Shown here: positions 33,280 through 51,360 of the stretch, one piece after another
Numbering within the stretch: the first letter of the stretch is position 1
Layout of the letters: each line of letters starts with the position of its first letter
Assembly: GCA_030696695.1 (NCBI GenBank)
Contig: JAUYRP010000001.1
Location: forward strand, 1-64,000
Origin: Methylophilus sp.
GTDB lineage: Bacteria; Pseudomonadota; Gammaproteobacteria; Burkholderiales; Methylophilaceae
Length of the DNA stretch: 64,000 nt
Direction: 5' to 3'
The notes under the pieces: model-generated
The model's input: only the letters and a program-made list of their open reading frames with translations
Database searches by the model: none
What the model was told of the DNA's origin: nothing
Made by a program: the position numbers and the translations under genes

Positions 33280-33450
33280 ATGATCAAACATCTACCAGAC
33301 AACCCTTCAAGCAACTTCATACGCCTGCGCAATAGCCTGATTACATCCACCGGCAAAGCGATTGGTGATTACAACATGATTGAAGAAGGTGATACCGTGC
33401 TGGTATGCATGAGTGGTGGCAAAGATATTAGCACAACAACAACAATGTAA
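33280..33450 (+). pseudogene. ttcA: ttcA 5' fragment, disrupted by island insertion
   Basis: The first 49 codons of the host ttcA are intact (start [13 protein letters not shown], then [20 protein letters not shown] and the PP-loop start MSGGKD). The frame then runs into island DNA, adds seven foreign residues and stops at 33448-33450. TtcA is the iron-sulfur PP-loop ATPase that makes 2-thiocytidine at tRNA position 32. This fragment lacks the ATP-binding Ser of SGGxDS and the whole Fe-S core, so it cannot work alone. The missing part is at 51489-52252. Confidence 0.95.
33421..33433 (+). other. Left island junction (attL core plus inverted end)
   Basis: AAAGATA (33421-33427) is the core shared with the right junction. 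Overlapping its end, TATTAGCA (33426-33433) is the exact reverse complement of TGCTAATA (51471-51478) at the other end, so the element has short inverted termini beside the direct-repeat core. Confidence 0.8.
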
Positions 33451-33570
33451 TCTTTAATATAAATAAATATAATATAATCATGATGTTAAGTTTAAATAAA
33501 ATTTATATTAAAAAAAATAAAATTATGCCTTATAATATATTTGAGCATATGTATTTTATGTAAACATTTA

Positions 33571-34863
33571 ATGATTGAAAACCTTACAGCGCAAACAAGA
33601 ATTATTATCGAAGATATCGGCTCTGGAGTTAACAAACGTTCAGTCAGAAGAGCCGTACTTTTAGATACTCGCAGCGGTCTACTATGTGAGTTGCCCACTT
33701 TATATGTCTATCGAAATTTAGGCCAAAAAAGCCATAATACTCACCTTGCAATCCTTAGAGATTTGGCATTCTACTTAGAATGGTCACTAATAAAAAAATC
33801 AAGAAACCCTAATTGGATAGCACCAGAAACACGGGTGAAGAATAATTCACTTGCATTAACAAGAAGAGAAATTGATGAATTCAGTGGTTGGTGCGACTTC
33901 TCTTCTAAAGAGTTAGCCAGAATTCGTTCAATTGACAACCCTAAGCTTCATAGCATTCCATCTGGTATTTTAGTAGACATTTCCACATCTAACGCTCGTT
34001 TACGAAATTTATGCAACTATTTAATATGGCTTACTCAAGACTTTATTGAAGGTGCGCTGAATGTAGATGACAAATCTCTTATTAAAAGTGAAAAATATAA
34101 AAATATAATTTACGAAGCCTTTGAAAAAAACTATAAGTCAGATAAAAAACCTGCACCAGTGTATTCTTTGGATTCAAATCAAACAGCGACTTTTTTACAA
34201 GCAATTAGCTCTAACAGTATTTTTCCTAATACCAATCATGGTAATAGGGATAAATTAATTGCCAGATTTCTTTATGAAACTGGACTGAGAGCAGGCGAAT
34301 GCCTTAAAGTAACTTGCGCAGACATTAAGTATAACTACGAGATACGTCCTGGCAAATTTATAAACATAATAAGAGTTAGACATAAACCAAATGATAATGC
34401 AGATCCGAGGACTAAAGAGCCTTTATCTAAGACTCTTTCTGGGGATCTAGCCGTTAGCAAGAACTTAACCGCGGATTTAATCAAATATATTACAAATGAA
34501 AGACGTCTTGCGATTTCATTAAGCTCTAATATAAAAGAACATCCTTATCTATTTGTTTGCCAAAGTGGTCCAAGTATTGGAGAACCAATTTCACAGCGCA
34601 ACTTGAATAGAATTATTTCAAAACTCAAATCGTTAAAAGAATTTCCAACATGGTTTACACCACATTCTTTGAGGCACACGCACTTAACTGAGATAGCTAA
34701 CATTGCTCATGAAAAAGGTAAAGATGTAAGAAGCATTTTAATTCAACGTGGCCGATGGGCTAACACCTCCACAATGCCTTCCAGATATAGCCAAAGACAC
34801 ATCATTGATCAAGCTGCAGAGCTAATTGAAGAGAGAGACCGCATCCTTGACAGCCTCAAATAA
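33571..34863 (+). CDS. ginA: Tyrosine recombinase GinA-like (first of three)
   Basis: This 430-residue tyrosine recombinase carries the catalytic set: first Arg in LYETGLRAGE (about residue 240), the HxxR box in TPHSLRHTHLTE (about 365-368), the RGRW motif and the nucleophilic Tyr in MPSRYSQRH (about 406). I start at the ATG (MIENLTAQTR); a TTG 30 bp upstream is in frame. A TATAAT at 33531-33536 could be its promoter. It is first in the four-gene recombination operon and overlaps the next gene by 38 bp. In GInts all four gene products are reported to be needed for integration and excision. Codon use is AT-rich relative to the host core. Confidence 0.9.
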   Translation: MIENLTAQTRIIIEDIGSGVNKRSVRRAVLLDTRSGLLCELPTLYVYRNLGQKSHNTHLAILRDLAFYLEWSLIKKSRNPNWIAPETRVKNNSLALTRREIDEFSGWCDFSSKELARIRSIDNPKLHSIPSGILVDISTSNARLRNLCNYLIWLTQDFIEGALNVDDKSLIKSEKYKNIIYEAFEKNYKSDKKPAPVYSLDSNQTATFLQAISSNSIFPNTNHGNRDKLIARFLYETGLRAGECLKVTCADIKYNYEIRPGKFINIIRVRHKPNDNADPRTKEPLSKTLSGDLAVSKNLTADLIKYITNERRLAISLSSNIKEHPYLFVCQSGPSIGEPISQRNLNRIISKLKSLKEFPTWFTPHSLRHTHLTEIANIAHEKGKDVRSILIQRGRWANTSTMPSRYSQRHIIDQAAELIEERDRILDSLK

Positions 34864-36376
34864 ATTTAGCGGATATGACACATTTATAGTTTATTCCAAT
34901 GAACTTATTCCTGAAGATTTCCCTAAAAGAATCAGACCGATTGATAGCGGTAAGTTAATTGATGTCAACTTCGATCTTATGACATTAAAGGGAGATGCTG
35001 GTGACGCAAGTATAAGACTAAACCAATTATCAGTTGGTTTAACGAAAGCTACCAGTAGCATTTTTTACTATGTCGTCATTCATGCATTAAATGGAAGAAG
35101 AAAAATATCGACAGTTAAACGTTGGATTAATCAATTCTCGATGTTTATAAGAGTCATAAAAGAATTAGTCCCAAACCAAATATCCTGTATCAATTTAGCA
35201 ATGTTTAATTGGTTTAACCAAGATAAATCTCCCTCATCACAGAAGTTGCTTAGATCGTTTATAAAGTATTGGATTGGTCTCAATATCCCAGGAATTGATT
35301 TAGACCTTAAGAGCTATATAAAATCATCAAAATCACCCAAGCCCAAAAGCACTATAAACATCCAAAATTCCAATCCGCAAGAGCGTCCATTCAGTATGCA
35401 GCAAACCAGAAATATCCTTACAAATGTTGAAAGCTTATACATATCAGGTGAATTTAATCCACAAGATTATTTAATGTGGAGATTAATTATTTCTGAAGCA
35501 ATGCGACCGTCGCAATTACAGTTATTAGAATTTGGAGACCTAAAAATTGATATGGATATAAATGGCAACTTGGTTAAAGTTCAAGTTAATGTTCCCATAG
35601 TTAAACAAAAAGCCACCCCGGCGCGAGAATACATGATGGAATACACACTTTCTGAGCCAATTGGTAGAGCGGTAGTAGAGCATATAAAATACATATCGAG
35701 TATTACAAAAAAAGAACCAGAACGTACTTTACCAATATTTTGCATTGCAAGAAAAGGTGCGGGAAAGCAGGTTCTTGTAAACAAAAATGGTATTAATATT
35801 ACTAGCCGAATCATGAATAGTCGAAAATATATCGCTGGTATTGATGAAGAGCCTCAAGATTTAAACTTATTTACTAGAAGGTTTAAACATACGAAACTAA
35901 CCCATTTAGCGATGTTAGGTGCGCCTCTAGAGGTTTTAGCAAGGGCTGGATTTCAAACGTCCACTGGATCACTAACACATTATGTCAATTTAACTGAAGA
36001 GGCTTTCGTTAATTATGAAAATCAATTATCAAGCCATCATGAGAACTTACTATCAGCATTCAGAGGTAAAGTAATTAACAAAAACTTCTCAACAAATCCT
36101 GATCTAGACCACCGGATTTTAGATCCAGATATCGATAAAGATGTTGGATCTTGCTCGACTAAGCCATGCAATGTACTTACCCCATTTGGATGTTATATTT
36201 GTCCGCGTTTTGAAGCATTTAAAGATGGGGCGCATCAGGCCGTTCTGGATAGCTTACTTTCCAAAAAGAAAAAATTAATAAAACTGAAACTTCCTCTTGA
36301 GGCTATTACAAGAGATGACTACCTTATTGATGCCGTCAGTTCTGTAATTTCTAGTATCAAAGAACAAAATGGCTGA
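34826..36376 (+). CDS. ginB: Tyrosine recombinase GinB-like (second of three)
   Basis: This roughly 516-residue recombinase has Arg in SEAMRPSQLQLLEF, a basic His/Lys box in TRRFKHTKLTHLAML and a terminal Tyr in SLTHYVNLTEEA, a divergent but recognisable integrase C-terminal domain. After the catalytic domain comes a Cys box, Cx4Cx7Cx2C (SCSTKPC ... GCYIC), which could bind a metal. The start is uncertain: the open frame begins at a TTG within ginA and no clear ATG lies nearby. It overlaps ginC by 8 bp. Confidence 0.85.
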   Translation: MKRETASLTASNKFSGYDTFIVYSNELIPEDFPKRIRPIDSGKLIDVNFDLMTLKGDAGDASIRLNQLSVGLTKATSSIFYYVVIHALNGRRKISTVKRWINQFSMFIRVIKELVPNQISCINLAMFNWFNQDKSPSSQKLLRSFIKYWIGLNIPGIDLDLKSYIKSSKSPKPKSTINIQNSNPQERPFSMQQTRNILTNVESLYISGEFNPQDYLMWRLIISEAMRPSQLQLLEFGDLKIDMDINGNLVKVQVNVPIVKQKATPAREYMMEYTLSEPIGRAVVEHIKYISSITKKEPERTLPIFCIARKGAGKQVLVNKNGINITSRIMNSRKYIAGIDEEPQDLNLFTRRFKHTKLTHLAMLGAPLEVLARAGFQTSTGSLTHYVNLTEEAFVNYENQLSSHHENLLSAFRGKVINKNFSTNPDLDHRILDPDIDKDVGSCSTKPCNVLTPFGCYICPRFEAFKDGAHQAVLDSLLSKKKKLIKLKLPLEAITRDDYLIDAVSSVISSIKEQNG

Positions 36377-38795
36377 GAATTTACCTTTATTCCTTGTCCA
36401 TTCCGAGCTGGATGTTCTAGATAGGTTTGAAAAATTCATCAACTGGGGTTTACCATTTGGTACGGCAAATATTAACAACATCCATGCAGATACCTTTGAA
36501 AAAGAACTTCCATATTTTGAGTACTCATCACGTTTCATTCCTCACAGTCACGACTCAACAAAATCATTTTTTCTCAAACAAGAGTTTCTAAAAGATGGCT
36601 TACTATCTACGACTAAACTATCAACAAGATTGCTTGACGCAGATAACTTCATCACAAGCAAAAACTACTTATTGTTTGCAAAAGCTTATATCAACGTAAT
36701 GATTTTCTACAGAAACCTAAGGTCAAAACCAAAATGCATCTCACTGGCTTTAATTTATCTTGAAAAAGCGCTGCGAGTATTAAATTGCGACAGCAATAAT
36801 CTTAACCAAATAAAACTCATCACCTTCCAGCAAGCTTTAAGATGTATTCAAGAGAGTAATTACAGCCAAGGCATCAAGTATGACACCGGCAAAGAACTAG
36901 AAACTCTTGCTGGAATGTTACAGTCTGGACACCACACCAAGACGTTCAGATTTTCTGGCAAAGGATTTAATCTTCTAGACAAACCATTCTCTTTCGTATC
37001 CGATATACAAGCTAAATCGCGCAAAAAAGCTATCGCTGTTGATGATAGTGAATTTAATCAAAGAGCCTCATCACGAATATCTAATGAGGAACTTGCTGCC
37101 GTTGGCTTAGCCTATTTCAAATCTCTTGATATAGATGGCGGAATAAGCAAGACAAGCTTTATGGCTTCTATTTGTGGGCTTTCTTTTACAACTGTCTCAA
37201 TGAGAATATCAGAAACATTACTATTAAGTAGAGATGCACTTTATAGTGACCAAGATAATAAAGAGCGTACTCGAATTAGATTAACGCGCCCTAAAATTGA
37301 TGAATCACAGAACCTGCCGATACCTCACAAGCTATCAAACTTAGCCAAGGAAATGTTTGAAAACATACTGCATTTTTCACAAGGTGCACATGAAGCATTT
37401 AAATTTTATCTAGCGAAATTTCCAAACTCATTTTCAGAAGTAAACGAGCTATATATCCCCTTACACCTAAGAGATATTTTTAATAAGGAGTATTTATCAA
37501 AAGAAGATGTACTTTTTGTTCTAGCATGCCCAGACTCTCCCTACTATTACTTCCCAAGTCGATTAGCAAAACTATCAGTACATATTTTTATAAAAGAACC
37601 TAATGACATTTCTAATCTTGTAAGCAAAAATTTTAGAAAACATAACGCTCCTTACATTCGGATTGACGAGTTCGAGAAAGCTAGTCAAAAATATAAGTTA
37701 AGCATAAATATGCCTCAAAATATTGATAAGACTAAATATATAACTTGCGTAATGGCCAGAAAGTATATTGGAAAAGGACACAGCCATCTAAAAATATCTC
37801 ATCCTATTTTTAGCGCCTCGCTTAAACCAGGTTGCTATATCAAATCTAAAGACCTATATAATTTTTTATTAATGCAATTTAAACAAAGCAAATTTATGCA
37901 TTGGCCGTACACCTCAAAAGATAAATCGACAAAACTTGATAACGCACTTTTAGTTTCATTCTTACCAGATAATACAAAAGGCATTGGCACAGGCAACGAG
38001 ATAGCTCAATGGTGGCGTCCTGAGGCACTCTCAGGACAAGTCATTAATGCTTGGCTTAGCCAATATAACCAAGGACCTGCTAAATTATTTTTCAATCTTA
38101 ATATTCGATTGAGCGATGGATCATACCCATCGATAACTCTACATAAAACTAGAAAGTATCATCAAACAGAAGCATTATTAGCTGGTGCAAATGAAAAATT
38201 TATCGATGAATTAGCCGGTAGGAAAAATGGAAAGCAATCAGAACATTACGACCTTCGCACCCCACACGAAATAATTTCACAATCTATAGAAACTTTTGAT
38301 CCTGATGTTGATTTTAACGTAATCGGCCCAGTCGCATTAGAAGCTCCTCCAAAAGTAAAAGTTATAGCACGAAAAATATTTCTATATGAAAATGCGGCGC
38401 CAAAGCACATCACTGAAGTAGGAGGGTGTAGAAGTGATTGGTCAATTAATCCATGCGAGATGTTCGGTGACTGCATGCGGTGCAATAAATCAGTGTGGCA
38501 AAAAGGTGATAAAAAAAGATTACCAATAATTCATGACATGCGGAATTACTCCATTCACATGATTGAACAAGCTAACTATAAAATAGCCGAAGGGAATGGG
38601 CACCTCCCAGTTAAGAAATACTTACAACAATTCAAGGACACATTAGAACGTTGTGAGCAAATACTTGCTATTGAAAATGATGCGTCTGTGAAAGTTGGTA
38701 CTATCGTTACTTTTTCTGCGCCTACTGGTTCATTCAGCGTTTCAGAATTAACCAATAAACTAAGAGTCGAAAATTGTGAATGTAGCAAGGAATAG
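36369..38795 (+). CDS. ginC: Large tyrosine recombinase GinC-like (third of three)
   Basis: At 808 residues this is about twice a normal integrase. The C-terminal part shows a recombinase-like box HKTRKYHQTEALLAG, then ELAGRKNGKQSEHYD with the likely nucleophilic Tyr. Near the end a Cys cluster, Cx8Cx5Cx2C (GGCRSDWSINPC ... DCMRC), echoes the one in the second recombinase. The N-terminal 400 residues have no motif I recognise and may bind element ends or partners. It overlaps ginB by 8 bp and lies 2 bp from ginD, so all four genes form one translationally coupled operon. Confidence 0.82.
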   Translation: MAENLPLFLVHSELDVLDRFEKFINWGLPFGTANINNIHADTFEKELPYFEYSSRFIPHSHDSTKSFFLKQEFLKDGLLSTTKLSTRLLDADNFITSKNYLLFAKAYINVMIFYRNLRSKPKCISLALIYLEKALRVLNCDSNNLNQIKLITFQQALRCIQESNYSQGIKYDTGKELETLAGMLQSGHHTKTFRFSGKGFNLLDKPFSFVSDIQAKSRKKAIAVDDSEFNQRASSRISNEELAAVGLAYFKSLDIDGGISKTSFMASICGLSFTTVSMRISETLLLSRDALYSDQDNKERTRIRLTRPKIDESQNLPIPHKLSNLAKEMFENILHFSQGAHEAFKFYLAKFPNSFSEVNELYIPLHLRDIFNKEYLSKEDVLFVLACPDSPYYYFPSRLAKLSVHIFIKEPNDISNLVSKNFRKHNAPYIRIDEFEKASQKYKLSINMPQNIDKTKYITCVMARKYIGKGHSHLKISHPIFSASLKPGCYIKSKDLYNFLLMQFKQSKFMHWPYTSKDKSTKLDNALLVSFLPDNTKGIGTGNEIAQWWRPEALSGQVINAWLSQYNQGPAKLFFNLNIRLSDGSYPSITLHKTRKYHQTEALLAGANEKFIDELAGRKNGKQSEHYDLRTPHEIISQSIETFDPDVDFNVIGPVALEAPPKVKVIARKIFLYENAAPKHITEVGGCRSDWSINPCEMFGDCMRCNKSVWQKGDKKRLPIIHDMRNYSIHMIEQANYKIAEGNGHLPVKKYLQQFKDTLERCEQILAIENDASVKVGTIVTFSAPTGSFSVSELTNKLRVENCECSKE

Positions 38796-38797
38796 AT

Positions 38798-39223
38798 ATG
38801 GGTGCTAAGAAGATTTCCATAAAAGACGAAAACGAAATACTTCAGATATTGCGTAAATGGCCAGCTAGTAAATTACTATCATGGGAGGACCTAAGGGTGC
38901 ATTTGGAAAAGACTCTTAAAAAGGGTGACTCAACCTGGTCCCGCCAATCACTTTCACGAAACGAGAACATTCACATATCGTTTAACGAAGCGAAAAGGCG
39001 TCTAAAAGAAAGTCGTAATGCACATAAAACCAATCCAAAATCTATCAATGAATATGAACAAAATATCCAAAGCCTTAAATCTGAACTAGCAGAGCTAACT
39101 ACTAAATATGAAACCCTATTGCATAGGCATACACAGTTGATATACAACGTTTCTCTGATTGAAAAAGGTAATCACTTGTTAAATGACCCTTTACCAGACA
39201 ATACGAAAAATCAAACCGGCTAA
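38798..39223 (+). CDS. ginD: Small recombination accessory protein GinD-like
   Basis: This 141-residue charged protein has a helical N-terminal domain ([40 protein letters not shown]) that looks like a winged-helix DNA binder, and a C-terminal coiled coil (about 86-120, [19 protein letters not shown]). GInts carry a fourth small gene with a helical DNA-binding-like product, essential for movement, at this position. It starts 2 bp after ginC. Its end overlaps the end of the convergent island ttcA by 4 bp. Confidence 0.8.
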
Positions 39224-40065
39224 TCTACAAAGTTAATTGTTTTAAAATCTTCTTTCACAACCATATCTGTATCGTATGCAACTTTAGATTTCGAAGTGAA
39301 CGTTGAAAAATCAAACATTTCTCTATCCAGAAGATGCGAAGGTGCTACGTTGCAAACTGCTCTAAACATGTTTTCAACTCTTCCAGGATGTTCTTTATTC
39401 CACTTAACTAAAAGTTCTTTCATAACCTGTCTTTGTAGATTTGGTTGTGATCCACATAGGTTGCATGGGATTATCGGAAAACTCATCATCTCAGAGTACT
39501 TCTTTATATCTTTTTCTGCGCAATAAGCCAAAGGTCTTATTACAACGTTTTCTCCATTATCTGATCGCAATTTTGGCGGCATCGCTTTCAAACTGCCACC
39601 ATAAAACATATTTAATAATAGCGTTTGTAAAATATCATCCCTATGATGCCCAAGTGCTATTTTAGTGGCGCCTAAATCTTTTGCTGTTTTATAAAGAATA
39701 CCTCTGCGTAATCTAGAACACAATGAACATGTAGTTTTACCTTCTGGTATTTTATCTTTTACAACGCTATATGTATCTTGTTCAACAATTCTAAAATCTA
39801 CTCCAATACTTTTTAAGTAATTTGGTAAAACTTCTTCAGGAAAACCGGGTTGCTTCTGATCCAGATTTACAGCAATTACTTGGAAATTAATAGGGGCAAT
39901 TTTAGAAAAATACACCAACGTATCCAACATGGTGTAACTATCAGCACCTCCAGATAGACACACCATGACTAAATCTCCATCTTCAATCATGTTAAAGTCT
40001 ATTATCGCTTTACCAGTTTCCCTACGGATTCTTTTTTGTAACTTATTAAAACTGTATTGATTCAT
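39220..40065 (-). CDS. ttcA: Island-borne complete TtcA (tRNA 2-thiocytidine synthetase)
   Basis: This 281-residue TtcA is intact: PP-loop SGGADS at 38-43, Fe-S cysteines C113/C116 in [13 protein letters not shown] and C201/C204 in [13 protein letters not shown], and the ALGHHRDD motif. It would make 2-thiocytidine at position 32 of certain tRNAs. It is clearly a diverged homologue of the host gene that the island splits, with AT-richer codons like the gin genes, so it came in with the element. It sits directly after ginD (convergent) and shares an ATGA overlap with the upstream HsdR-like gene. I infer that it replaces the destroyed host activity. Where the host copy has SGGKDS, this copy has Ala for Lys. 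Confidence 0.95.
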
Positions 40066-42698
40066 TTATTTTCACTAAAGTTATTTGAATATACCCAAGC
40101 ATCACCTAAAGTTTGAGCTTGTTGCAAAACCAACTCCACAGCCTCATTCTGTTGGTCTGGTGGATACTTGTATTTACGCAGTATGCGCTTAACTAACAAG
40201 CGTAAACTTGCACGTACACTGTCCCTAATAGCCCAATCAACAGTTATATTTTTGCGCAAGCTTTCAGCTAGTTCATGTGCAATTTTCTTTAGCGTTTCAT
40301 CGCCTAGTTCACGCACAGATTCTTCGTTATTGGCTAGAGCATCGTAGAAAGCCAATTCGTCATTACTCAATCCCAGATCAGCACCTCTGTCGGCCGCTTC
40401 TTTAAATTTCTTGGCCATTTCGAGGAGCTCTTCAATGACTTGAGCAGTTTCGATCGAGCGGTTTTGGTAGCGATTAACCACGTTAGCTAACAAGTCCGAG
40501 AACTTAGTTTGTTGCACGATGTTTGTAGCGAAGCGGGTTTTAATTTCACCTTCTAGCAGGCGTTCCAGCATTTCTACAGCAAGATTGCGCTCAGGCAGGT
40601 TACGCACTTCGTTTAAGAAGTCTTCATCCAGGATACCAATATTTGGTTTATCCAGTCCGGCAGCATCGAATATATCGACTACTTCCTCGGACACCACGGC
40701 TGAGCCTATGATCTGCCGTATTGCCAGGTCGCGTTCTTCGTTGGTTTTTTTCTTGATGCTGATTTCTTTTTTGGTTAGCAGCACTTTCACTGCCTGGAAG
40801 AAAGCGACTTCTTCACGTACAGCCTTAGCCTCATCTAAAGTGCAGCACAAAGTAAATGCTTTTGACATTGCCAGCGCAGTATCGCCAAAGCGTTTTTTTC
40901 CATCCTTAATGCCGAGTACATGGTTAGCCGTTTTTGCTAAAACACTATGCCCGCCTGATAGAAAGTTGCTGTAATCAAAGCCGTGCAACATCGCGCGAAG
41001 TACGTCGAGTTTCTCTTCCAGCACTGCATAAGCTTCGTGAGCATCAACCGTAGGTCGGCCACGGCCATTACTAGCGGTATATTCTTTGAGTGCCTGTTTC
41101 AGATCGTTTGCGATGCCGATGTAATCTACAACCAGGCCACCCTGTTTGTCGCGGAATACACGATTTACCCTGGCAATCGCTTGCATCAGGTTGTGCCCCT
41201 TCATCGGTTTGTCGACATACAGCGTATGTACGCACGGCGCATCAAAACCAGTCAGCCACATATCGCGTACTATGACTAGCTGTAGCGGGTCGTCAGGGTC
41301 TTTGAAGCGTTTTTCAAGGCGTTTTTTAACTTGCTTGGAGTATACGTGCGGTCTGAGTAATGGTTTGTCGCTGGCTGAACCAGTCATAACGACTTTGATT
41401 GCACCTTTTTCTGGATCTTCATCATGCCAGTCCGGGCGCAGTTCGGTAATCGCGTTGTAGAGGTGTACACAAATCTCACGACTCATGGCGACAACCATAG
41501 CCTTGCCGCTTTGTGCCTTGTTACGCTCTTCAAAATGCTCAACGAGGTCTTTGGCTACTTGCTGTATGCGTGGAGCAGCACCAACAATGCTTTCGAGTGC
41601 AGCCCATTTGCTTTTTAAGCGAGCCTGCTGGTCATCTTCTTCATCTTCGGCCAATTCATCTACTTCAGCATCAATCTCAGGTAACGCTTCTTGATTCAGT
41701 CCTAACTTGGCAAGGCGTGACTCAAAGTAAATTGCGACTGTAGCGCCATCATCCCGCGCTTGCTGCATATCGTAAACGTGGATGTAATCACCGAAGACGG
41801 CGCGAGTATCACGGTCTTCACTTGAAACCGGGGTGCCAGTAAAGGCAACAAAGGTAGCGTTAGGCAGAGCATCACGTAAATGTTGAGCGTAGCCTACCTG
41901 ATAACCTTTGGCATCGCCCTTGAATTTGGCTTCAAAGCCATACTGGGTTCGATGCGCTTCATCAGCAATTACAACGATGTTGTAGCGGTCTGATAATACA
42001 GGGAAGCTATCTTCATCTTCGCCTGGCATGAACTTCTGAATGGTTGCGAACACGATACCGCCGGAAGGACGATTGGCTAGCTTTGCACGTAAATCTTGGC
42101 GCGTTTCACCTTGTACTGGCTGCTCACGTAGCAAGTCCTGCGAGAGCGAGAATACGCCGAATAGTTGACCGTCTAAATCGTTACGGTCAGTAATCACAAC
42201 AATGGTCGGGTTTTCCATTGCAGCTTCAGTCATGACACGCGCTGCAAAGCATGTCATGGTAATGCTCTTGCCTGAGCCTTGCGTATGCCAGACTACGCCG
42301 CCTTTATGATTGCCATCTGGACGCGATGCATTTATGACCTGGTTAATCGCTGCACGCACTGCATGAAACTGCTTACGAACTTCCAGCACCAATTTGCTCT
42401 TGTTCGCAGCAGTTGTCGCGAATAGCATATGGCCAATATCTAGGCCGACAGCATCTGCTAGAGCGACATCATCCGTTACGGTTGACAGGGTGAACGTCTT
42501 TTTGTTGTAGTGCTTGCACTGGATGCCTACATTTATTTTGCCATCGTGGCCGAGGATGTCAATTCCGAACTGGGACTGTCCTGGGCCTCCCACTCTGCTG
42601 CAAGAGGAGTCATTCCACATCCGACGGTATAGAGCATGACACATCGCCTCAAAATCACTTTCATTTTCTGGTTTTGTTAGTTCATTACTTACTGCCAT
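40062..42698 (-). CDS. Chimeric HsdR-like restriction translocase with foreign N-terminal nuclease domain, orphan
   Basis: Residues about 108-878 follow type I restriction HsdR subunits: Walker [10 protein letters not shown] (138-145), DEAH in [11 protein letters not shown] (246-249), [26 protein letters not shown] and the helical C-terminus. The normal HsdR nuclease domain (some 200-300 residues) is missing. In its place residues 1-107 form a short Mrr-like/PD-(D/E)xK domain with Asp47 (QFGIDI) and Gln-Cys-Lys at 60-62 (GIQCKHY). At 878 residues it is shorter than usual. No hsdM or hsdS is nearby, so it is not a classical type I system. The start is preceded by AGGA. Downstream ttcA overlaps by 4 bp. 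It could be active with a different specificity, or a deletion fusion. Confidence 0.85.
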
Positions 42699-43195
42699 GC
42701 TTGATTCCTGGTCGATGATTTTTGAGTAAGGTGCTTACTCTTGATACAGTGTAAAACATACGGTGTGCCAGTGCAAAGATACCTATGATTCATTGCTACA
42801 TCTTCAAACCCTCTAGCACATGTCATTAGCTCATTATGACGATTCTTAGGTTTAATTTCGATGTCATTACGAGCGAGTATGTTCTAAATCTTATGAAGTC
42901 CCAGCGTATTTTTCGACCGTCAGCTAAGGGGATTTATAAGCCTTCGGCAAATTAGCGGGACAAAGTCCCATACAGATTTGGCACGTCAATATTAGCAGCC
43001 AGCCAATAGTTGTCCTTAGCTATTTATATCAATATTATTTTTTGATAACGATGTAGTGCACCAGATATTCATACTTGCCTTTAATTTACCGAAATTGCTA
43101 CAGGAAGAACTAGTTTGCAACGTTATTTAAAATTACTGCATAATATTAGTAGATAAATGTGTGCTTCAAATCTAGGTCAGTTTTATAGGGGTAAT
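42699..43195 (+). other. Intergenic island DNA without a convincing gene
   Basis: This is about 500 bp between the divergent HsdR-like gene and the prepilin gene. I see no reading frame with a ribosome site. It holds one copy of the dispersed 28-bp repeat (42915-42942) and just after it a short GGGAC/GTCCC inverted pair at 42957-42969. Promoters for both flanking genes must lie here but are not obvious. Confidence 0.5.
42915..42942 (+). repeat. Dispersed 28-bp island repeat, copy A
   Basis: It begins GACCGTCAGCTAAG and ends AAGCC; it aligns without gaps to copies at 45159-45186 and 51049-51076. This copy is the most divergent of the three (central GGGGATTTAT instead of GCGGATATTT). Confidence 0.5.
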
Positions 43196-44290
43196 ATGCG
43201 AACGAAATACCAGCCAGGCTTCACTCTTGTAGAAATGGCCGTTGTGGTCTTTTTAATAGGGATTCTAGCCACAATGGGGTTATCAGCTGCAAATGCCCTA
43301 CTTGCAAGCTCTAGCATCAGTAATACCAAAAAGAAGCAGGAAGTGATTAAGGATGCTTTAATCGCGTATCTTGGAACCAATAAACGCCTACCATGCCCTG
43401 CCATCAATGAAAATGGGGTTGAAGCAAATAACGGTGCAGTACCAAGCATATGCACCGGATATTTTGGATTATTGCCCTATCGAGCGCTAAATTTACCAAA
43501 AAGTGCTGCACTTGATGGATGGGAAAATATATTTTCATATGCCGTTTCACCGCAGTGGACATTGGCTTATGCAAACGTAGTTACTGCCACTTCATCAAGT
43601 AATCCAGGCATTGCCTTTAATACCGGCGATGCCGGGGCATTGCCAGTTAGTACCAGAACACCTGCAACTAATCCGGTGGCAACTCCTCTTGGCAATGATG
43701 CTGCAATAGTAATCTCACATGGTCATAATGGATTAGGCGCATTCACCAATAAAGGCACGCAGACAAACCTGCCAGTTGCCGGGACAGATGAACTTGCAAA
43801 TGCGGTCCCTGCAGGATTTGCAGTTCCTGCTACATTTTACCATCGTGAATATACTGATATTGATGTGGCTGTATATGGTGGTTTTGATGACGTCTTATTA
43901 AGATTAAGTCCTACTGAAATACTAGCGCCATTGGTTAAAGATGGTTCTCTTAAATCCACAGAGGCGCAGTGGGCTGAACAAGTTGAAAGTATCAATGATG
44001 CTCTAGCAAGCTTTATGTTAAACCCAGGAACAGTAAATTGTAATCCGCCAGCAACTCAAGGGGATTTTAATAATTTATTGATAGCAAACAACATAAATTT
44101 AGTTAATCCGTGGGGAGATCCAATTACTTATGTTCAAGTCATAACGCGCTTAAAGAGTGATGGCGACACAACACCTGGAGCAGCTATTAATCCATACACA
44201 TTATCTACCATTGGAAGGGTTATGAATTATCCAACCATAGTAACTTTCTATGGTAAATATAAAAAAATTATAGAAAACACTTGTCCATAA
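43196..44290 (+). CDS. Prepilin-like protein 1 of island cassette
   Basis: The protein of 364 residues starts MRTKYQPGFTLVEMAVVVFL, a class III prepilin leader with Gly before the cleavage site and Glu at +5, then a hydrophobic helix. The rest is a large globular domain with RLPCPAINENG near residue 60, a pattern seen in big stand-alone pseudopilins. I choose the ATG after AGGGG rather than one 13 codons upstream. It is followed 15 bp later by a small membrane protein and then a second prepilin, so the three form an operon. No secretion ATPase or prepilin peptidase is in the island. Confidence 0.85.
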   Translation: MRTKYQPGFTLVEMAVVVFLIGILATMGLSAANALLASSSISNTKKKQEVIKDALIAYLGTNKRLPCPAINENGVEANNGAVPSICTGYFGLLPYRALNLPKSAALDGWENIFSYAVSPQWTLAYANVVTATSSSNPGIAFNTGDAGALPVSTRTPATNPVATPLGNDAAIVISHGHNGLGAFTNKGTQTNLPVAGTDELANAVPAGFAVPATFYHREYTDIDVAVYGGFDDVLLRLSPTEILAPLVKDGSLKSTEAQWAEQVESINDALASFMLNPGTVNCNPPATQGDFNNLLIANNINLVNPWGDPITYVQVITRLKSDGDTTPGAAINPYTLSTIGRVMNYPTIVTFYGKYKKIIENTCP

Positions 44291-44305
44291 ACTTGGAGTT
44301 ATTCA

Positions 44306-44494
44306 ATGAATTTCAAATTAGCACTAATTTTAACGCCAGCATTTTTCATGCTTTCAATTTGGGTACTCGCCCTATCAAGTAGTGTATTGCTAACAACCAT
44401 TGGTCTAGTTAAGTTAGCACTATGGGCAGCACTTATGTCTTATGGCGCTGCATTATCAGTCACGATTTTTGTTAAAGAAATCATCGTTAAATAA
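44306..44494 (+). CDS. Small membrane protein between two prepilins
   Basis: This 62-residue protein is almost entirely hydrophobic with two predicted membrane helices (about 4-26 and 33-56) and a basic end (KEIIVK). A GGAG ribosome site lies 8 nt upstream. I do not recognise it. Its place between two prepilin genes suggests a role with them, which is inference. Confidence 0.7.
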   Translation: MNFKLALILTPAFFMLSIWVLALSSSVLLTTIGLVKLALWAALMSYGAALSVTIFVKEIIVK

Positions 44495-44495
44495 A

Positions 44496-45104
44496 TTGAA
44501 AGCTTTCAAAGCATTCACATTAATAGAAATGGCCATTGTCGTAATGATAATTGGCTTAATCTTAGGATTCGTAGCATCACGCAGCAGCTCATTAATAGGT
44601 AATTCAGAAACTACAGATACCATTGCTTTAATTAAAGACTTGAATGATGCAGCTTCCAGCTTTAAAAATAAGTATCACTATTTACCTGGTGACTTACCTC
44701 TGGCCGGTGATGATATTCCTAATGTAAGTGCTGGTTGCAGCCTTGCAGTAAATACAGCATCAATAGGCAATGGCCGCATTGATACAGCCACAGAAGTCGG
44801 GTGTGTAGCTGAGCATCTAGTGCGTGCTGGAATGATTAAAGGCACGATTAATGGGATATTCACCAGAAGCAATAATTCCAATGTGGCTGATGTATTTATT
44901 ACAGCTCGTAGAGCTGCAGGCTCCCTGCCAGTATCTGTAATAAACGAAATACAGATAAATAACCTATCATGCGACACAGTACGCACTATTGATTCAAAAT
45001 TAGATGATGGCGATATTACTGCAGGCAGAATCACTGCATCAGTTGCTGCATGTGTTCCAAATGGTGCAAATGATCCAGTTCCAATACTAGATATTGCTAT
45101 TTAA
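44496..45104 (+). CDS. Prepilin-like protein 2 of island cassette
   Basis: The frame contains a prepilin leader KAFKAFTLIEMAIVVMIIGL, so I start at the TTG directly before it (one base past the previous stop); an upstream in-frame ATG at 44442 would add an unlikely 18 residues. The cleavage position carries Ala instead of the usual Gly (KA/FTLIEM), which prepilin peptidases can tolerate. The globular part has HYLPGDLPLAGDD and IGNGRIDTATE, resembling the chromosomal prepilin at 23366-24007. No good ribosome site is visible, so translation may be coupled to the small gene upstream. Confidence 0.8.
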   Translation: MKAFKAFTLIEMAIVVMIIGLILGFVASRSSSLIGNSETTDTIALIKDLNDAASSFKNKYHYLPGDLPLAGDDIPNVSAGCSLAVNTASIGNGRIDTATEVGCVAEHLVRAGMIKGTINGIFTRSNNSNVADVFITARRAAGSLPVSVINEIQINNLSCDTVRTIDSKLDDGDITAGRITASVAACVPNGANDPVPILDIAI

Positions 45105-45473
45105 CTTTATATTGAAGGTCTACTTTGGGTTGATGTCTGGCGATGTTTAAATAAAACTGAACGTCAGTTAAGCGGATATTTCAGCCATCTGTAAGCGATA
45201 GTAATTAAACGCCAATGCTATGCAGTAGTTTATTTAGAAATGCATGACTCAGAAATACTAATTTGTGGCTACTTTAAAATAATAATCGGTAGCACCCTTA
45301 GGCAAAAATACTCAAACATGCGAATTAATGTCGAAAACATGTTGCGATTACATCATTCCAACAGTGACAGCTGTTGTGTATCTAAGTCTATATACCATGA
45401 ATACGCGAGGCACTAATGAGTGTTTTTTCCTGAATAGAACAACCTTTTATTAAACAAGAGAGTCTCTGCTACC
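45105..45473 (+). other. Intergenic island DNA, no gene seen
   Basis: I find no credible frame on either strand. It includes repeat copy B at 45159-45186. No clear terminator for the prepilin operon is visible. Confidence 0.4.
45159..45186 (+). repeat. Dispersed 28-bp island repeat, copy B
   Basis: It begins GAACGTCAGTTAAGCGGAT and ends CAGCC. It differs from copy C (51049-51076) at five of 28 positions by eye. Confidence 0.55.
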
Positions 45474-45695
45474 TTATTTAAATCTTGCACTTAATAGCAA
45501 TCTGTTACCCAGTCCATAAGACTCTCCTAAGTTTTTGTAAGCATTAGATATACGAACGTGAGAAAAATTTGATGTAACGATTTCATTTACCAGATTATTA
45601 TCTAGAACTCGCACATTAACCAATCCCAAGCCAACTTTGTTCTTCAGCAATCTTCTTGTGATAAGTCGTTTTCTTGTTAAGAGAAATATGCGTAT
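45474..45695 (-). pseudogene. Possible decayed C-terminal gene fragment
   Basis: A 73-codon minus-strand frame without a sensible start ends NAYKNLGESYGLGNRLLLSA and then RFK before the stop. Upstream in the same frame an in-frame TAG interrupts further protein-like sequence. The alternating pattern and terminal Phe-Lys recall the end of an outer-membrane barrel, but I cannot name it. Low confidence. Confidence 0.25.
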
Positions 45696-45898
45696 CTATC
45701 CTAAGAAAGCGAGTGATACTTGTTTTCCATCGATAAAATTTTGTCCATGAGTTCATTGTTAGCTTAAATTGATGTTTTGTTAGAAAACATATTAGGCTTC
45801 ATTTATCAATTAATCCAATTGGTTGTTTCAATGCCTATGATTAGTAAAACTAATCAATCGGAGACGTCAGCTGCGATCTATATTGCTATGAAAATTAA

Positions 45899-46063
45899 CT
45901 ATGCCTGTAACAATGGAGATGCTAGAAAATGGATTGCAGTTACTACGGGTACAATAAATACTGCAGTAACAAACATTACTGTAAAGAGTATGCGTAGGAA
46001 CTTGTTAGTCTCAAACAGCGTAATATCGCGGTTTTCATCTCTATAGTTTGGATATGTATTCAT
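45899..46063 (-). CDS. Small membrane protein, 54 residues, unknown
   Basis: The minus strand encodes a charged N-terminus (MNTYPNYRDENRDITLFETN) followed by one strong membrane helix (LRILFTVMFVTAVFIVPVV) and a short tail ending SPLLQA. An AGGGG ribosome site lies 7 nt before the ATG, which decides strand and start. It lies downstream of pqqA in the same direction, separated by a hairpin. No family is recognised. Confidence 0.6.
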   Translation of the reverse strand: MNTYPNYRDENRDITLFETNKFLRILFTVMFVTAVFIVPVVTAIHFLASPLLQA

Positions 46064-46179
46064 TTAAATCCCCTGAAGAAACTTTTGATTTCTTTGTTAT
46101 AAAAGTTTGAAGTGGGTAACTTCAAAAAAAGTTTGCATATAGTGATAACTATATAAATCTAATATGTCATAGAAATGAC

Positions 46180-46202
46180 AAAGGGAGCATAAGCTCCCTT
46201 TT
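46180..46202 (-). terminator. Hairpin after pqqA
   Basis: The perfect stem AAGGGAGC, loop ATAA, GCTCCCTT (46181-46200) follows the pqqA stop by about 20 bp. The T run is short on both strands (TTT on minus), so it may be a weak terminator or an mRNA-stabilising structure between pqqA and the 54-residue gene. Confidence 0.5.
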
Positions 46203-46220
46203 GTGAATTCCGCTGAGGAA

Positions 46221-46292
46221 TTACTTATTCATGACGTACATTGTTACTTCAAAGCCAAAACGCATTTCAGTCGCTGCTGGTGTTGTCCACAT
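46221..46292 (-). CDS. pqqA: PqqA, precursor peptide of pyrroloquinoline quinone
   Basis: This 23-residue peptide reads MWTTPAATEMRFGFEVTM, then YVMNK. It has the PqqA hallmark ExxxY (Glu15, Tyr19 in FEVTMY), the two residues that PqqE and the other Pqq enzymes join and excise to make PQQ. GGAG stands 7-8 nt before the ATG. A longer in-frame start at 46352 (43 residues, MNWIEKIYRQ...) also has a ribosome site (GAGGTGAG) and is preceded by a tiny overlapping frame (46365-46391); the 23-residue form fits family length. No other pqq genes are in the window, so this would be an extra copy feeding a PQQ pathway encoded elsewhere. A PQQ-type dehydrogenase lies 2.3 kb away in the same island. Confidence 0.88.
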   Translation of the reverse strand: MWTTPAATEMRFGFEVTMYVMNK

Positions 46293-46577
46293 AATATTCT
46301 CCAAAGTGTTATCTGTTTTGAACTGACGATATATCTTTTCGATCCAGTTCATTATGCGCTCACCTCAAAATACAGCACTATTGGTACTCATGATTGATCC
46401 CTCAGTAAAATCATGAGCGAGAGAAAATTTAGCAAACTTATCATTTAAGCCGACCTACTCCAGTCCCTAGCGATTTTTTAATGCGTGCTATCAAAACATT
46501 AATAACTGCTAAGTAATGGCAAGAGATATATTGCTTCAAATCCTTAGAAAATTAATACATAAGCTGAAAGATTAAAT

Positions 46578-46606
46578 TTGCATTTAGTTAGCCAGCTAAC
46601 TATAAT
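46578..46606 (+). promoter_or_regulatory. Promoter with palindromic operator in the spacer
   Basis: TTGCAT (46578-46583) and TATAAT (46601-46606) are spaced by exactly 17 bp. The spacer and the first -10 bases form a perfect inverted repeat, TAGTTAGC-CA-GCTAACTA (46585-46602). A dimeric repressor bound there would block RNA polymerase. The next gene, the secreted SnoaL-like protein, begins 149 bp downstream. The matching regulator is not identified; the AraC-type gene nearby would usually bind direct rather than inverted repeats. Confidence 0.6.
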
Positions 46607-46754
46607 GAGCCTAACTAGAGTTTGGATCATCTTCATATTTCAGTTGATGACTGCTAAGTTCTGTTATTAATGATGCTTGGACAAATTAGCTGCAAGCGAC
46701 ATGAAAAAATATTTATTTCATGGTTTTTTACACTTCAATTAAGGATTACCCCAT

Positions 46755-47213
46755 ATGAAATCACTGATTAAAAACACACTCGCGATAATAACTTTTAGCC
46801 TTGTAACAACAAGTATTGCGTTTGCTGAAGAAATGACTGCCAAAACAACGGTAGAGTCATTAAACAATACTTGGAATAAAGCCTTTAATAATTCAGATGC
46901 GAGTTCACTTGCGAGTTTATATGCAGAAAACGCTGTACTTTCCCCAGGCAACGGCAAAGTTCTGACTGGACGTGCAGAGATTCAGAATTTATTTAAAAGT
47001 TTTTTTGAAGCAGGTTTGAAGAATCATCAATTGGAGATCGTCACAGTTGATGGTGATGATGAAACGCTATATCAGGTCGCAAAGTGGAGCGCTAGTGGTG
47101 CTGAAAAGGATGGTGTAACAGTCACTTACAGCGGCATTACGACTAGTGTTTTTAAGAAAGATGGAAATGGTAAGTGGGTAGCTCGCACTCACATTTGGAA
47201 CGCCGGCAATTAA
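46755..47213 (+). CDS. Secreted SnoaL/DUF4440-like protein (NTF2 fold)
   Basis: This 152-residue protein has a signal peptide cleaved after AFA (residues 1-24) and then an NTF2-like cone fold pattern: SLNNTWNKAFNNSDASSLAS, LYAENAVLSPG and KWVARTHIWN. Such proteins range from small-molecule isomerases to binding proteins; function cannot be deduced. It is monocistronic, driven by the palindrome-containing promoter at 46578, and ends at a terminator. Confidence 0.75.
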   Translation: MKSLIKNTLAIITFSLVTTSIAFAEEMTAKTTVESLNNTWNKAFNNSDASSLASLYAENAVLSPGNGKVLTGRAEIQNLFKSFFEAGLKNHQLEIVTVDGDDETLYQVAKWSASGAEKDGVTVTYSGITTSVFKKDGNGKWVARTHIWNAGN

Positions 47214-47250
47214 ACTCCTCAAGAGACTAGTGCAGCATTCTGCAAAATGA

Positions 47251-47278
47251 TAAACCCGACCATCTTTGATCGGGTTTA
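47251..47278 (+). terminator. Intrinsic terminator after the SnoaL-like gene
   Basis: The 9-bp stem TAAACCCGA/TCGGGTTTA with a loop of about 10 nt lies 38 bp past the stop codon. The following TTTAGTTTGT is moderately T-rich. Confidence 0.6.
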
Positions 47279-47401
47279 GTTTGTCTGTTGATATAAGTTG
47301 TAAAGCACCAAGATTCTGTCCACTCTTCCTAAAAGTCCACAAAGTTTGAGTTTTGGTAGTCCGCTTTGCGGATTAAGCAGAATATGGGACAAAGCTCCTC
47401 T

Positions 47402-48355
47402 TCACGGCTGAACGGTTACATATTTAGAAGCCGGGTCGAAGGGTAATGTGATGAGTGATTCTCGCATAGCAGCCATATCTTCCATTGGGGTTTTACCAAA
47501 CAGTCGTTTAAATTCACGGCTAAATTGTGAAGGACTCTCATAGCCAACTTTAGCGGAAGCATGCGCTGCTGAAGTACCGTCTTGAAACATGAGTAACCTG
47601 GCTTTATGTAACCGCGTTGTTTTCAGATATTGTATTGGAGATGTTGCAGTCACGGCTTTAAAACTGGCATGAAAGGCAGCCAAACTCATCCCGGTTTCAT
47701 CAGCCAGTTTCGCGACGTTAAGATCATCTGCAAAATCAGAGTGTATCCTTCGCAAGGCCTTACTGATTTTACCCAAGTGATTTTGCTGGCTTAGTAATGC
47801 GCGAATAGCTTCACCTTGATTGCTGATTAAAACCCGATAATGAATCTCCCGCAAGATTGAATGGCCAAGAATATCCGTATCGTTAGCCGAAGTTAATGCT
47901 TGCAACAGTCTTAGTACTGTATTAGAAAGCTTAGCATCCAATGGGGTGGATACCATCCCATGAGTTCCAAGCTCAGAATGGGAAGACCCTTGATCAAGCA
48001 TCAAGATCAGCTCGGAGAGAATGGGTATATTAATGCGAATCGAAATACCCATTAAAGGCTCTTCTTCACTGGCGATCGTTTCGCTTTCAAACGGCAGTGG
48101 AACCGACAGCACCAAAAAATGCTGCGGGTTGTAATGAAAAACTTCTTGACCTAAATAACCAATTTTACGACCTGAGCAAATCACCACGATGCTTGGTTCA
48201 TATAAAACCGGACTGCGCGGCAAAGAGCGGTTCCAGCGCATGAGCTTCACACCTTCTAAAGGGGTGAGAGTAAAGCCTTCAGTCGGCGCCAAACGCTTAA
48301 GGAGGTCGCATATGTCGCTTTGATCGGACTCCTGCCAGCAGTTCATCTTAGTCAT
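47402..48355 (-). CDS. AraC-family transcriptional regulator
   Basis: This 317-residue regulator has an N-terminal AraC-type ligand domain (VLYEPSIVVICSGRKIGYLG, cupin-like) and a C-terminal double helix-turn-helix (VAKLADETGMSLAAFHASFK; AHASAKVGYESPSQFSREFK). It is divergent from the two-propeller dehydrogenase across a 157-bp gap, which suggests that it controls that gene. The ligand is unknown; members with this N-terminal domain often sense small aldehydes, alcohols or drugs, which I cannot verify here. Confidence 0.88.
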   Translation of the reverse strand: MTKMNCWQESDQSDICDLLKRLAPTEGFTLTPLEGVKLMRWNRSLPRSPVLYEPSIVVICSGRKIGYLGQEVFHYNPQHFLVLSVPLPFESETIASEEEPLMGISIRINIPILSELILMLDQGSSHSELGTHGMVSTPLDAKLSNTVLRLLQALTSANDTDILGHSILREIHYRVLISNQGEAIRALLSQQNHLGKISKALRRIHSDFADDLNVAKLADETGMSLAAFHASFKAVTATSPIQYLKTTRLHKARLLMFQDGTSAAHASAKVGYESPSQFSREFKRLFGKTPMEDMAAMRESLITLPFDPASKYVTVQP

Positions 48356-48444
48356 AAAAATTATATATTTAGGTTACAAAACTATATTATATCAACTATA
48401 AATTCATATTTATAAATAGTTTTAGGCAATAAATAAGGAGTTTT

Positions 48445-48510
48445 ATGTATTCAAAAAATCTCATTGCCTCAGTAAACTACTATTGGTCTAGTTTCGATAA
48501 CAAGGAGTAA
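48445..48510 (+). CDS. Possible 21-residue leader peptide upstream of the dehydrogenase
   Basis: An ATG preceded by a consensus AAGGAG at 7-8 nt opens a 21-codon frame (MYSKNLIASVNYYWSSFDNK plus Glu) that stops 2 bp before the dehydrogenase ATG. The ribosome site of the dehydrogenase (AAGGAGT) is embedded in the last codons of this frame, so translation of the leader could affect the downstream start. Coding status is inferred only from the ribosome site and spacing. Confidence 0.4.
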   Translation: MYSKNLIASVNYYWSSFDNKE

Positions 48511-48512
48511 AT

Positions 48513-50468
48513 ATGAAAGTGCAATTAAACCTACTTGCATTCATGCTGGGAACAGCATTTAGTGCGGTATCGCTAAATACTTATGCTGAAGCAGCAGATG
48601 CCCAGGCGAATTTAAGTAAATTAAACGTCCCTGCAGGCTTTAAAATCGAAGTCTATGCGGATGTGCCAGATGCACGCCAAATGGCATTAGGTACCAATGG
48701 AAATATATATGTCGGCACGCGTGGCAATAAGGTCTATGCAGTCGTTGACAAGAACAAAGATCACAAAGCAGATCAAGTAATTACCATATTAGACGATTTG
48801 AACATTGGTAATGGTGTGGCGATGTACAAGGGTAACCTGTACGTGGCAGAACAGAACCGTATTACACGTTATGCTGCGCCAGATTTTGATTTGACACTGC
48901 CATTCAAGCAAATGCGCGAAGTCATCTATGACAAGCTGCCGAATAAGGCTCACCATGGCTGGCGATATATCGCTTTCGGTCCGGACAACAAGCTATATGT
49001 AACAGTGGGTGCGCCTTGCAATATTTGTGAAACAAAAGGGATTGAAGGTTCTATCATCAGAATGGATCCGGATGGCAGTAACGTAGAAACCTTTGCAAAA
49101 GGCGTTCGCAACTCGGTAGGTGTCGATTTTCAGCCAGACACCAATGTGGTCTATTTCACCGATAACGGCGGCGACATGATGGGCGACGATATCCCGCATG
49201 ACGAATTAAACGCAGCGGTCAAAGCAGGCCAGCACTTCGGTTTTCCTTACTACGCTGGCGGTGACGCTCGTTCCCCGCAGTTGAAAGATAAAACACCACC
49301 AAAGAATGTCGTTTTTCCGGCAGCTGAGTTTCAGGCGCATAGCGCCAACCTGGGTTTTAAATTCTATAGTGGTAAACAGTTTCCTGAGGAATACCAAGGT
49401 AGCGCAATTGTCGCCCAACATGGGTCATGGAATCGCAGCAAGCCGGTTGGTTATCAACTGATGAAGGTGAAATTCGACGCCCAGCATCGCGTGACTGGAA
49501 CTGAGGTGTTCATTGATGGCTGGTTGAATAATGGCGAAATCTGGGGACGCCCAACGGATGTGCTGCAATTGCCTGATGGCTCATTGCTGGTATCTGATGA
49601 CTACAACGGCGTGATTTACCGCGTTAGTTATGGCGAAGGTAATGCTGACGCTAAAGCACCAGCTACTGCTACAGCACTTGGCACTGTAACGGGTTTGAAA
49701 ATGCCTGAGTCTTCGATTGCCCATCCGGATGGGCGTATATTTGTTACGGAAATCGGTGAATTCGGCAAGAGCGGTGACGGTAAGGTGACTGTGATTAATG
49801 CTAACGGTTCAAAATCTACATTAGCTGATGGTTTGAATGATCCAAAAGGAATCGATATGTTCAATAATCAGCTGTATGTTGCAGATATGGATCAGGTAGT
49901 ACGTATTGATCTGCAAGGTAATAAAACGGTAATTGCAAAACCATCAGATTTCCAGAGCAAACCAGTTTTTCTGAATGACATTGAAATCGATGGCTTAGGC
50001 AACGTGTATGTATCCGATAGCGGGGAAGATAATGGTAAACATGCTGCCATTTACAAGATTACGTCTCAAGGGCAAGTGGTGCAACTCATCAGCGATAAAT
50101 CCGGCATAAAACGCCCAAATGGTTTATTAATGGATGGCCCCAATGCATTATTGGTTGCAGACTTTGGTACAGGAAAACTGTTCCGCATAGACTATTCTGA
50201 ACAAGACGGCAAAGTTAAGTCTAATTTGACGCTGCTGAATCAAGGCTTTGGTGCTGCTGATGGTTTGATACGTGATCCTAGCGGTGTACTCTACATCAGC
50301 GATTGGGCTGGCGGCAAAGTTTGGCAATTAAGCGAACCCAAGGCGACTCCGCAATTGATTAGCGAAGGAAATCAGTCGTCAGCAGACATTAACTTATCAG
50401 CCGATGGTAGAACGATACTGATGCCCGATATGAAGGCCGGGACATTGGTTCCAATTTCAATTCGTTAA
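48513..50468 (+). CDS. Secreted PQQ-type sugar dehydrogenase fused to an SMP-30/NHL-like propeller
   Basis: This 651-residue protein has a signal peptide (about 1-26, ending TYAEA). Residues about 35-370 match the sorbosone/soluble aldose dehydrogenase propeller: HHGWRYIAFGPDNKLYVTVG with the likely catalytic His, VGAPCNIC, GVRNSVGVDFQPDTN, YFTDNGGDMMGDD and IVAQHGSWNRS. After a linker near 372-385, residues 386-651 form a second propeller like SMP-30/gluconolactonase or NHL repeats (NDPKGIDMFNNQLYVADMD, RPNGLLMDGPNALLVADFGTG). It should act in the periplasm with PQQ, on a sugar or aldehyde not identified. It is likely regulated by the divergent AraC gene, and pqqA in the same island could raise cofactor supply. 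Confidence 0.85.
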   Translation: MKVQLNLLAFMLGTAFSAVSLNTYAEAADAQANLSKLNVPAGFKIEVYADVPDARQMALGTNGNIYVGTRGNKVYAVVDKNKDHKADQVITILDDLNIGNGVAMYKGNLYVAEQNRITRYAAPDFDLTLPFKQMREVIYDKLPNKAHHGWRYIAFGPDNKLYVTVGAPCNICETKGIEGSIIRMDPDGSNVETFAKGVRNSVGVDFQPDTNVVYFTDNGGDMMGDDIPHDELNAAVKAGQHFGFPYYAGGDARSPQLKDKTPPKNVVFPAAEFQAHSANLGFKFYSGKQFPEEYQGSAIVAQHGSWNRSKPVGYQLMKVKFDAQHRVTGTEVFIDGWLNNGEIWGRPTDVLQLPDGSLLVSDDYNGVIYRVSYGEGNADAKAPATATALGTVTGLKMPESSIAHPDGRIFVTEIGEFGKSGDGKVTVINANGSKSTLADGLNDPKGIDMFNNQLYVADMDQVVRIDLQGNKTVIAKPSDFQSKPVFLNDIEIDGLGNVYVSDSGEDNGKHAAIYKITSQGQVVQLISDKSGIKRPNGLLMDGPNALLVADFGTGKLFRIDYSEQDGKVKSNLTLLNQGFGAADGLIRDPSGVLYISDWAGGKVWQLSEPKATPQLISEGNQSSADINLSADGRTILMPDMKAGTLVPISIR

Positions 50469-50480
50469 TTGATAAAACAA

Positions 50481-50510
50481 TATAAAAGGCCGGAATTCCG
50501 GCCTTTTATA
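50481..50510 (+). terminator. Terminator: perfect 30-bp palindrome after the dehydrogenase
   Basis: The two 15-nt halves (TATAAAAGGCCGGAA and its exact complement) form a long GC-core stem with A/T flanks, 12 bp past the stop codon. It can work in both directions. Confidence 0.8.
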
Positions 50511-50650
50511 TTTTGAGATGTTACATGAATGATGCATGCGACTTGTGCTGCAATTTGCCCACAAGCTAAAGCTTTTGTCTAGACTGTGCAGCATACAATA
50601 ATAAAGTCATAATCTGACGCCTTGAGATGTATTTTATATTGGGAAATTAG

Positions 50651-50980: not shown

Positions 50981-51048
50981 AACTGTAAAAATCAAGGTTA
51001 ACTGCAGCGTTCACTTGAGGCCGTTGTAGTGTATTTCAAATTTAAACT

Positions 51049-51358: not shown

Positions 51359-51360
51359 AG

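Follow-up and report, generated by a model that had tools for sequence, protein, structure and literature searches.

A GInt-family island in the ttcA gene of Methylophilaceae that probably carries its own TtcA as a target rescue

Integrating elements commonly spare conserved genes, either by using gene ends or by rebuilding the gene they enter. Here we describe an island, found in a Methylophilaceae stretch of 64,000 nucleotides (hereafter the window), that enters a conserved protein gene, ttcA, in its middle and carries a replacement for it without the landing site. The island resembles the GInts (Bardaji et al. 2017, PMC5385486) in the order of the ginABCD genes, in its variable cargo and AT-rich right end, in its site-specific insertion with what may be short imperfect repeats, and in its spread between species. 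In GInts the beginning of the cargo is found close to the ginD stop codon, on either side of it, whereas here a conserved ttcA separates the two (six of the six insertions that could be assessed). The target is cut in the middle of its coding sequence, unlike those of the GInts in that paper. GInts are flanked by imperfect direct repeats of 10–17 nucleotides; the exact common core here measures 5–7 bases. Because the cargo does not start at ginD, we offer the island as a GInt variant, not as a typical member. The name ttcA is absent from the available text of that paper, and from that of a paper on strand-biased elements and GInts (PMC10214605).

Other systems share part of this arrangement. 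tRNA-dependent lysogeny (Guerrero-Bustamante and Hatfull 2024, PMC10865867) is alike in its short common core, in a target that is not rebuilt, and in a gene of the same function on the element. In that case the elements are phages, both target and rescue are tRNA genes, and the need for the rescue was shown by experiment; here the element is a GInt, the target encodes an enzyme, the rescue would be a foreign orthologue without the core, and the need for it is predicted from sequence. By analogy, the island ttcA could be seen as a protein-gene counterpart of tRNA-dependent lysogeny. The Rac prophage of Escherichia coli also integrates in the 5' part of ttcA, but it leaves a TtcA with an altered N-terminus (PMC4632033), whereas the island interrupts the host reading frame and brings along an entire gene. 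Cleave and Rescue and home-and-rescue gene drives (PMC7951863, PMC7968924) likewise break a target and carry a resistant copy; these are engineered, animal and nuclease-based, whereas the island is natural, bacterial and recombinase-based. HK022 (PMC6814406) and Haloquadratum (PMC3119063) were considered as comparisons and set aside as not relevant, on the text available. We found no earlier report of target rescue for a protein gene in the literature covered, most subscription journals being outside that coverage.

The interrupted host gene and the ttcA of the island

The host ttcA lies in two pieces on the forward strand of the window. The 5' fragment (33280–33427) reads as far as SGGKD, then continues into a few codons from the island and ends at a stop, and the 3' fragment (51482–52252) runs from KDSHAML to the stop codon. 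A seven-base core, AAAGATA, is common to the two junctions (attL, 33421–33427; attR, 51482–51488) and covers the KD of the PP-loop motif SGGKDS. Together with both cores the island spans 33421–51488, i.e., about 18.07 kb. A preliminary description of this DNA had stated that the island breaks the host copy, and the reading frames bear this out: the gene is broken upon integration and is not rebuilt. Judged from the flanks, excision should rebuild it.

A second ttcA lies within the island on the reverse strand (39220–40065, ATG to TAG, 281 residues). The preliminary description had called it a complete TtcA, and it is a real one: residues 2–266 of the protein match the NCBIfam TtcA equivalog model at 470.7 bits, where the cut-off is 272. 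Its Cys36, Cys113, Cys116, Cys201 and Cys204 fall in columns that are Cys in all 53 other TtcA rows, and Cys182 in a column that is Cys in 52 of the 53. Across 104 near-invariant columns the window copy departs at two, and the three distinct island copies together at four. The earlier statement on Fe-S cysteines and PP-loop stands for the cysteines; the PP-loop, in contrast, does not have the usual form SGGKDS but reads SGGADS. The family model and the conserved residues are the evidence that the island holds a gene of the same function. This gene does follow the integrase operon directly, as first described: the open reading frames of ttcA and ginD overlap tail to tail by 4 nucleotides (39220–39223), and they do likewise in the two other island types presented below.

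The ginABCD operon consists of four co-directed genes on the forward strand (33541–39223), at the left end of the island. The first, ginA (33541–34863, with an alternative ATG start at 33571), encodes a tyrosine recombinase (PF00589, E 2.7e-13). The putative second recombinase-like protein, GinB (34826–36376), matches NF041502 with 172.7 bits, below the cut-off of 350. The putative third, GinC (36369–38795), matches no family and is similar solely to other GinC proteins, and ginD (38798–39223) encodes a small protein. At the opposite end, the short AT-rich region typical of GInts (51370–51481) is present and similar in the three island types, as read by eye. The joined island ends form 8-base inverted arms around an 8-base spacer (hairpin z −4.65), and inverted arms around a short spacer are expected for recombinase sites.

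Left junctions were seen for all eight insertions that we found (see below), and right junctions for six of them and also for G139 and G125. Across hosts, the crossovers fall within a short stretch around AAAGA, the exact common core being only AAAGA or AAAGATA, with AAAG on the left of type 3. For GInts, signs of six-base staggered cuts have been reported, as well as a tenfold rise of integration when attI is closer to attB (PMC5385486). At the six crossover bases, all six island copies of ttcA differ from the host at three positions and read GCT(GA) where host copies have AAA or AAG. Because of these differences, the island ttcA would not itself be a target. Lysine occupies the core position in all 24 family host copies examined, which were the best-scoring ones, and in all 33 viral-contig copies, a further viral-contig row being too short for this count. 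The SGGADS form was found in four of the 29 class TtcAs (L068, L078, L079 and L091), in several branches of the class; these 29 are the best-scoring rows of a 369-genome search, not a random draw. The idea that the alanine arose on the island as an immunity mutation is weakened by these four TtcAs, which include the sister row L068. The alanine version was probably recruited from a lineage already having SGGADS rather than evolved on the island.

A copy without the core might instead protect against a second island in the site, as a decoy or a means of immunity, with no rescue at all. Yet the split host gene already removes that site, and the strong protein-level selection on the island copy (see below) points to an enzyme function; we give this explanation almost no credence.

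Recurrence, backbone and cargo

We identified eight insertions at one ttcA site, all at the same codons, among 187 genomes of the family. They fall into type 1 (window, G109, G139, G144 and G138), type 2 (G125) and type 3 (G114 and G137). An extra ttcA beside ginD occupies the same place in all six assessable insertions. Islands at the site that regularly lack it had been named beforehand as the refuting case, and none was seen. The G137 and G138 insertions were found via a contig with ginA and ginB and via split ttcA genes. They belong to metagenome-assembled genomes whose contigs end inside ginB (G137) and ginA (G138), and no middle part of the island turned up in either bin; at first they resembled islands without a rescue gene, and they are counted as undecided. 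A complete second ttcA was seen in six of the 187 genomes, all of them with the island in ttcA (Fisher p 1.8e-11 for 6/0 versus 0/181, and 5.1e-10 with G137 and G138 counted as lacking the extra copy, values that are indicative only since the genomes are related).

The host flanks (880 bases) are 70–76% identical between pairs of insertions, except for G109 and G114 (87%). The type 1 islands of the window, G109 and G144, from two genera, are identical at 18,066 of 18,066 bases (33421–51486), while the flanks of these three are 72–75% identical; in G139, 14,087 of 14,087 bases are identical. Because the flanks have diverged and the islands are base-identical, the insertions appear to be independent events, and transfer of the type 1 island between two genera looks very recent. 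GInts excise as a circle, for which all four gin genes are needed; the identical islands in different hosts bear on this only indirectly.

We re-searched nine genomes with odd ttcA matches, G137 and G138 among them. Of the others, the ttcA genes of G015 and G103 look frameshifted, those of G037 and G096 are at contig ends, G085 has one stop inside its match to the island TtcA, no close ttcA was found in G076, and G090 has ttcA pieces that overlap across two contig ends. The two matches in G015 and the three in G090 are all pieces, and the neighbourhoods read in G090, G076 and G103 contain no gin genes.

The search for GinC in the family genomes gave 12 matches, of which six were close (window included), all six lying in ttcA with the extra copy, and in 399 genomes of the order it gave two matches besides the window, both distant. 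A GinB search of 369 class genomes gave two matches, in G822 (adjoining ssb) and G781, with no copy of the flanking gene within the 20 kb read around each. The same search of genome_contigs gave five loci, all corresponding to genomes already in the family set, and no relative of the island was found in viral_contigs. TtcA matches in plasmids and phages were all less than 80% identical, with a maximum of 74% in viral_contigs.

Comparison of the three types separates a backbone from the cargo. Common to all three are ginABCD, ttcA, the 13 bases before the ttcA start and the right end. The 13-base stretch (40066–40078, reverse strand, read by eye) may hold the ribosome-binding site of ttcA, with cargo beyond it; between types 1 and 2 the likeness extends over some 23 bases with one mismatch. 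The types differ in their cargo: an HsdR-like gene with others in type 1, and apparent metal transporters and cation-efflux genes, as read from the sequences without a family search, in types 2 (G125) and 3 (G114). On this comparison, ttcA is a fifth backbone gene beside ginD and not cargo. The preliminary description had proposed that integrase and ttcA probably travel as a pair; both ginABCD and ttcA are retained across three cargo types.

The ratio of non-synonymous to synonymous substitution rates (dN/dS) of the island ttcA is 0.026 (window and G125), 0.035 (window and G114) and 0.015 (G125 and G114), these values being rough where dS is near or above 1. The gin genes have ratios of 0.11–0.21, and ttcA is the most constrained island gene tested. 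The codon use of ttcA is, as had been noted earlier, nearer to that of the gin genes (correlation 0.87) than to that of six host genes (0.68), and its G+C content is 34%, versus 42–47% for the same host genes.

Could ttcA be ordinary cargo that matches the target gene by chance? GInts do carry varied cargo, mostly from related bacteria (PMC5385486), and one cargo gene, the pilin-like gene at 43157–44290, also leans to gin codon use (0.77 vs 0.61). However, ttcA stays while the other cargo is exchanged, its composition is like that of the gin genes and unlike that of the neighbouring HsdR-like gene, and no island-free genome among the 187 was seen with a complete second ttcA. We thus regard chance cargo as highly improbable.

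The shared AT-rich codon use of ttcA and the gin genes would also fit a TtcA that serves the element, e.g., by thiolating tRNAs for its AT-rich genes, with host rescue as a side effect. Other GInts provide a control. In distant GInts from the family the gin genes stand in the same order, at 22–29% identity, and G138 has one such GInt. Five family GInts at the ssb end (four read, that of G166 by position) are without a second ttcA, and the genomes with other GInts (G046, G128, G165, G166 and G068) show one ttcA only. Because of this, the extra ttcA goes with the target site, and we hold a role in the service of the element to be very unlikely. Six genomes were searched for ssb, five of them with an ssb-end GInt, and a second close ssb was found in none; an extra ssb match in G046 is weak (33%), and the ssb at the GInt site of this genome is very diverged (45%). 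Distant GInts of the family and class (L025, L027, L029, L030 and L168) adjoin the ssb end, as reported for other GInts.

The cargo of the type 1 island starts with the HsdR-like type I restriction subunit (40062–42698, reverse strand), whose end overlaps the ttcA start. It is without the usual N-terminal part: its match to the HsdR model begins only at position 236, and its first ~75 residues have a weak resemblance to Mrr_cat (E 0.0058, below the cut-off). Neither a methylase nor a specificity gene could be recognised next to it, and PADLOC reported nothing but the HsdR-like gene. The remaining cargo (42700–51340) encodes two proteins with N-methylation (pilin-like) motifs, a SnoaL-like protein, an AraC-type regulator, a GSDH/SGL protein and an SMR efflux protein.

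Origin and proposed role of the island TtcA

In a tree of 60 TtcA rows, the island copies form one clade (100/100), and the family host copies form a separate clade of 28 rows (100/99). The nearest row to the island clade is L068, from a genome of the same class (98/89). The island clade thus lies outside the Methylophilaceae host clade, and a recent duplication of the host gene, which the preliminary description had proposed to check by such a tree, is rejected.

We consider it very probable that this is a GInt-family island specialised for the PP-loop site of ttcA and carrying its own TtcA as a target rescue. The island would integrate at the PP-loop codons and break the host ttcA, and the island TtcA would take over; once expressed, it would replace the broken host enzyme in making s2C32 (2-thiocytidine at position 32) in tRNA. 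It is because the insertion cuts ttcA in two, with no rebuilding, that the island would carry a complete TtcA. The host probably keeps a working enzyme via the island copy, and the latter may cancel the fitness cost of the insertion. In G125, two in-frame stops interrupt ginC (L022:6096-8519), and the island ttcA, which no other unsplit copy was found to accompany, is open; this suggests an immobilised island that keeps its ttcA.

The host enzyme might instead persist in another form. In all three types, a 24-codon frame with an ATG at the right end of the island (51410–51481) is fused in frame to the host 3' fragment, with mild constraint (dN/dS 0.19–0.50). The right end could thereby give this fragment a new start and N-terminus, leaving a working host TtcA and a redundant island copy; the presence of Rac indeed alters only the N-terminus of TtcA (PMC4632033). 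Such a product would, however, miss the N-terminal part of the native protein and with it the SGG of the PP-loop, and the strong constraint on the island copies is unexpected for a redundant gene. We find this alternative extremely unlikely and retain the island copy as the probable rescue.

Several observations weigh against a rescue role, and the new in-frame start for the host 3' fragment is among them. The gene is not strictly essential: six high-quality family genomes out of 119 show no match to ttcA, and E. coli remains viable when ttcA is knocked out (PMC4632033). In the window the island ttcA has no conspicuous promoter nearby: 39000–43200 contains 9 promoter-like matches where 8.9 are expected. 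It begins where the HsdR-like cargo gene ends, and cargo transcription may therefore drive it in type 1. The ttcA dS between G125 and the window is 0.69, higher than the 0.19–0.32 of the gin genes, so that recombination may have separated ttcA from the gin genes. Towards the cargo, the 5' half of ttcA is less alike between these two than most of the surrounding backbone, a pattern that fits recombinational exchange at the edge of the cargo. The alanine need not have been selected as immunity, given its occurrence in other TtcAs of the class. The search yielded a single element lineage, present in two genera, and two of the eight insertions are beyond checking on broken contigs. G090 may have a second partial ttcA copy without an island, judging from its overlapping pieces.

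More tentatively, since we find it plausible but slightly harder to accept than to doubt, the island could be a natural bacterial home-and-rescue element, in whose fixed backbone recombinases that break a conserved gene are paired with a foreign, core-less orthologue, the host then becoming dependent and its own gene lastingly displaced. Such dependence would follow because the host fragments would be free to decay and the island copy would be the sole working enzyme. The host 3' fragments that we read are still open, and their decay is not yet seen. If the island TtcA acts as the rescue proposed above, the island would extend target rescue from phage tRNA genes to a protein-coding gene in another class of elements, make it simple to ask whether a rescued host comes to depend on its island, and reveal a route by which foreign orthologues may displace host genes.
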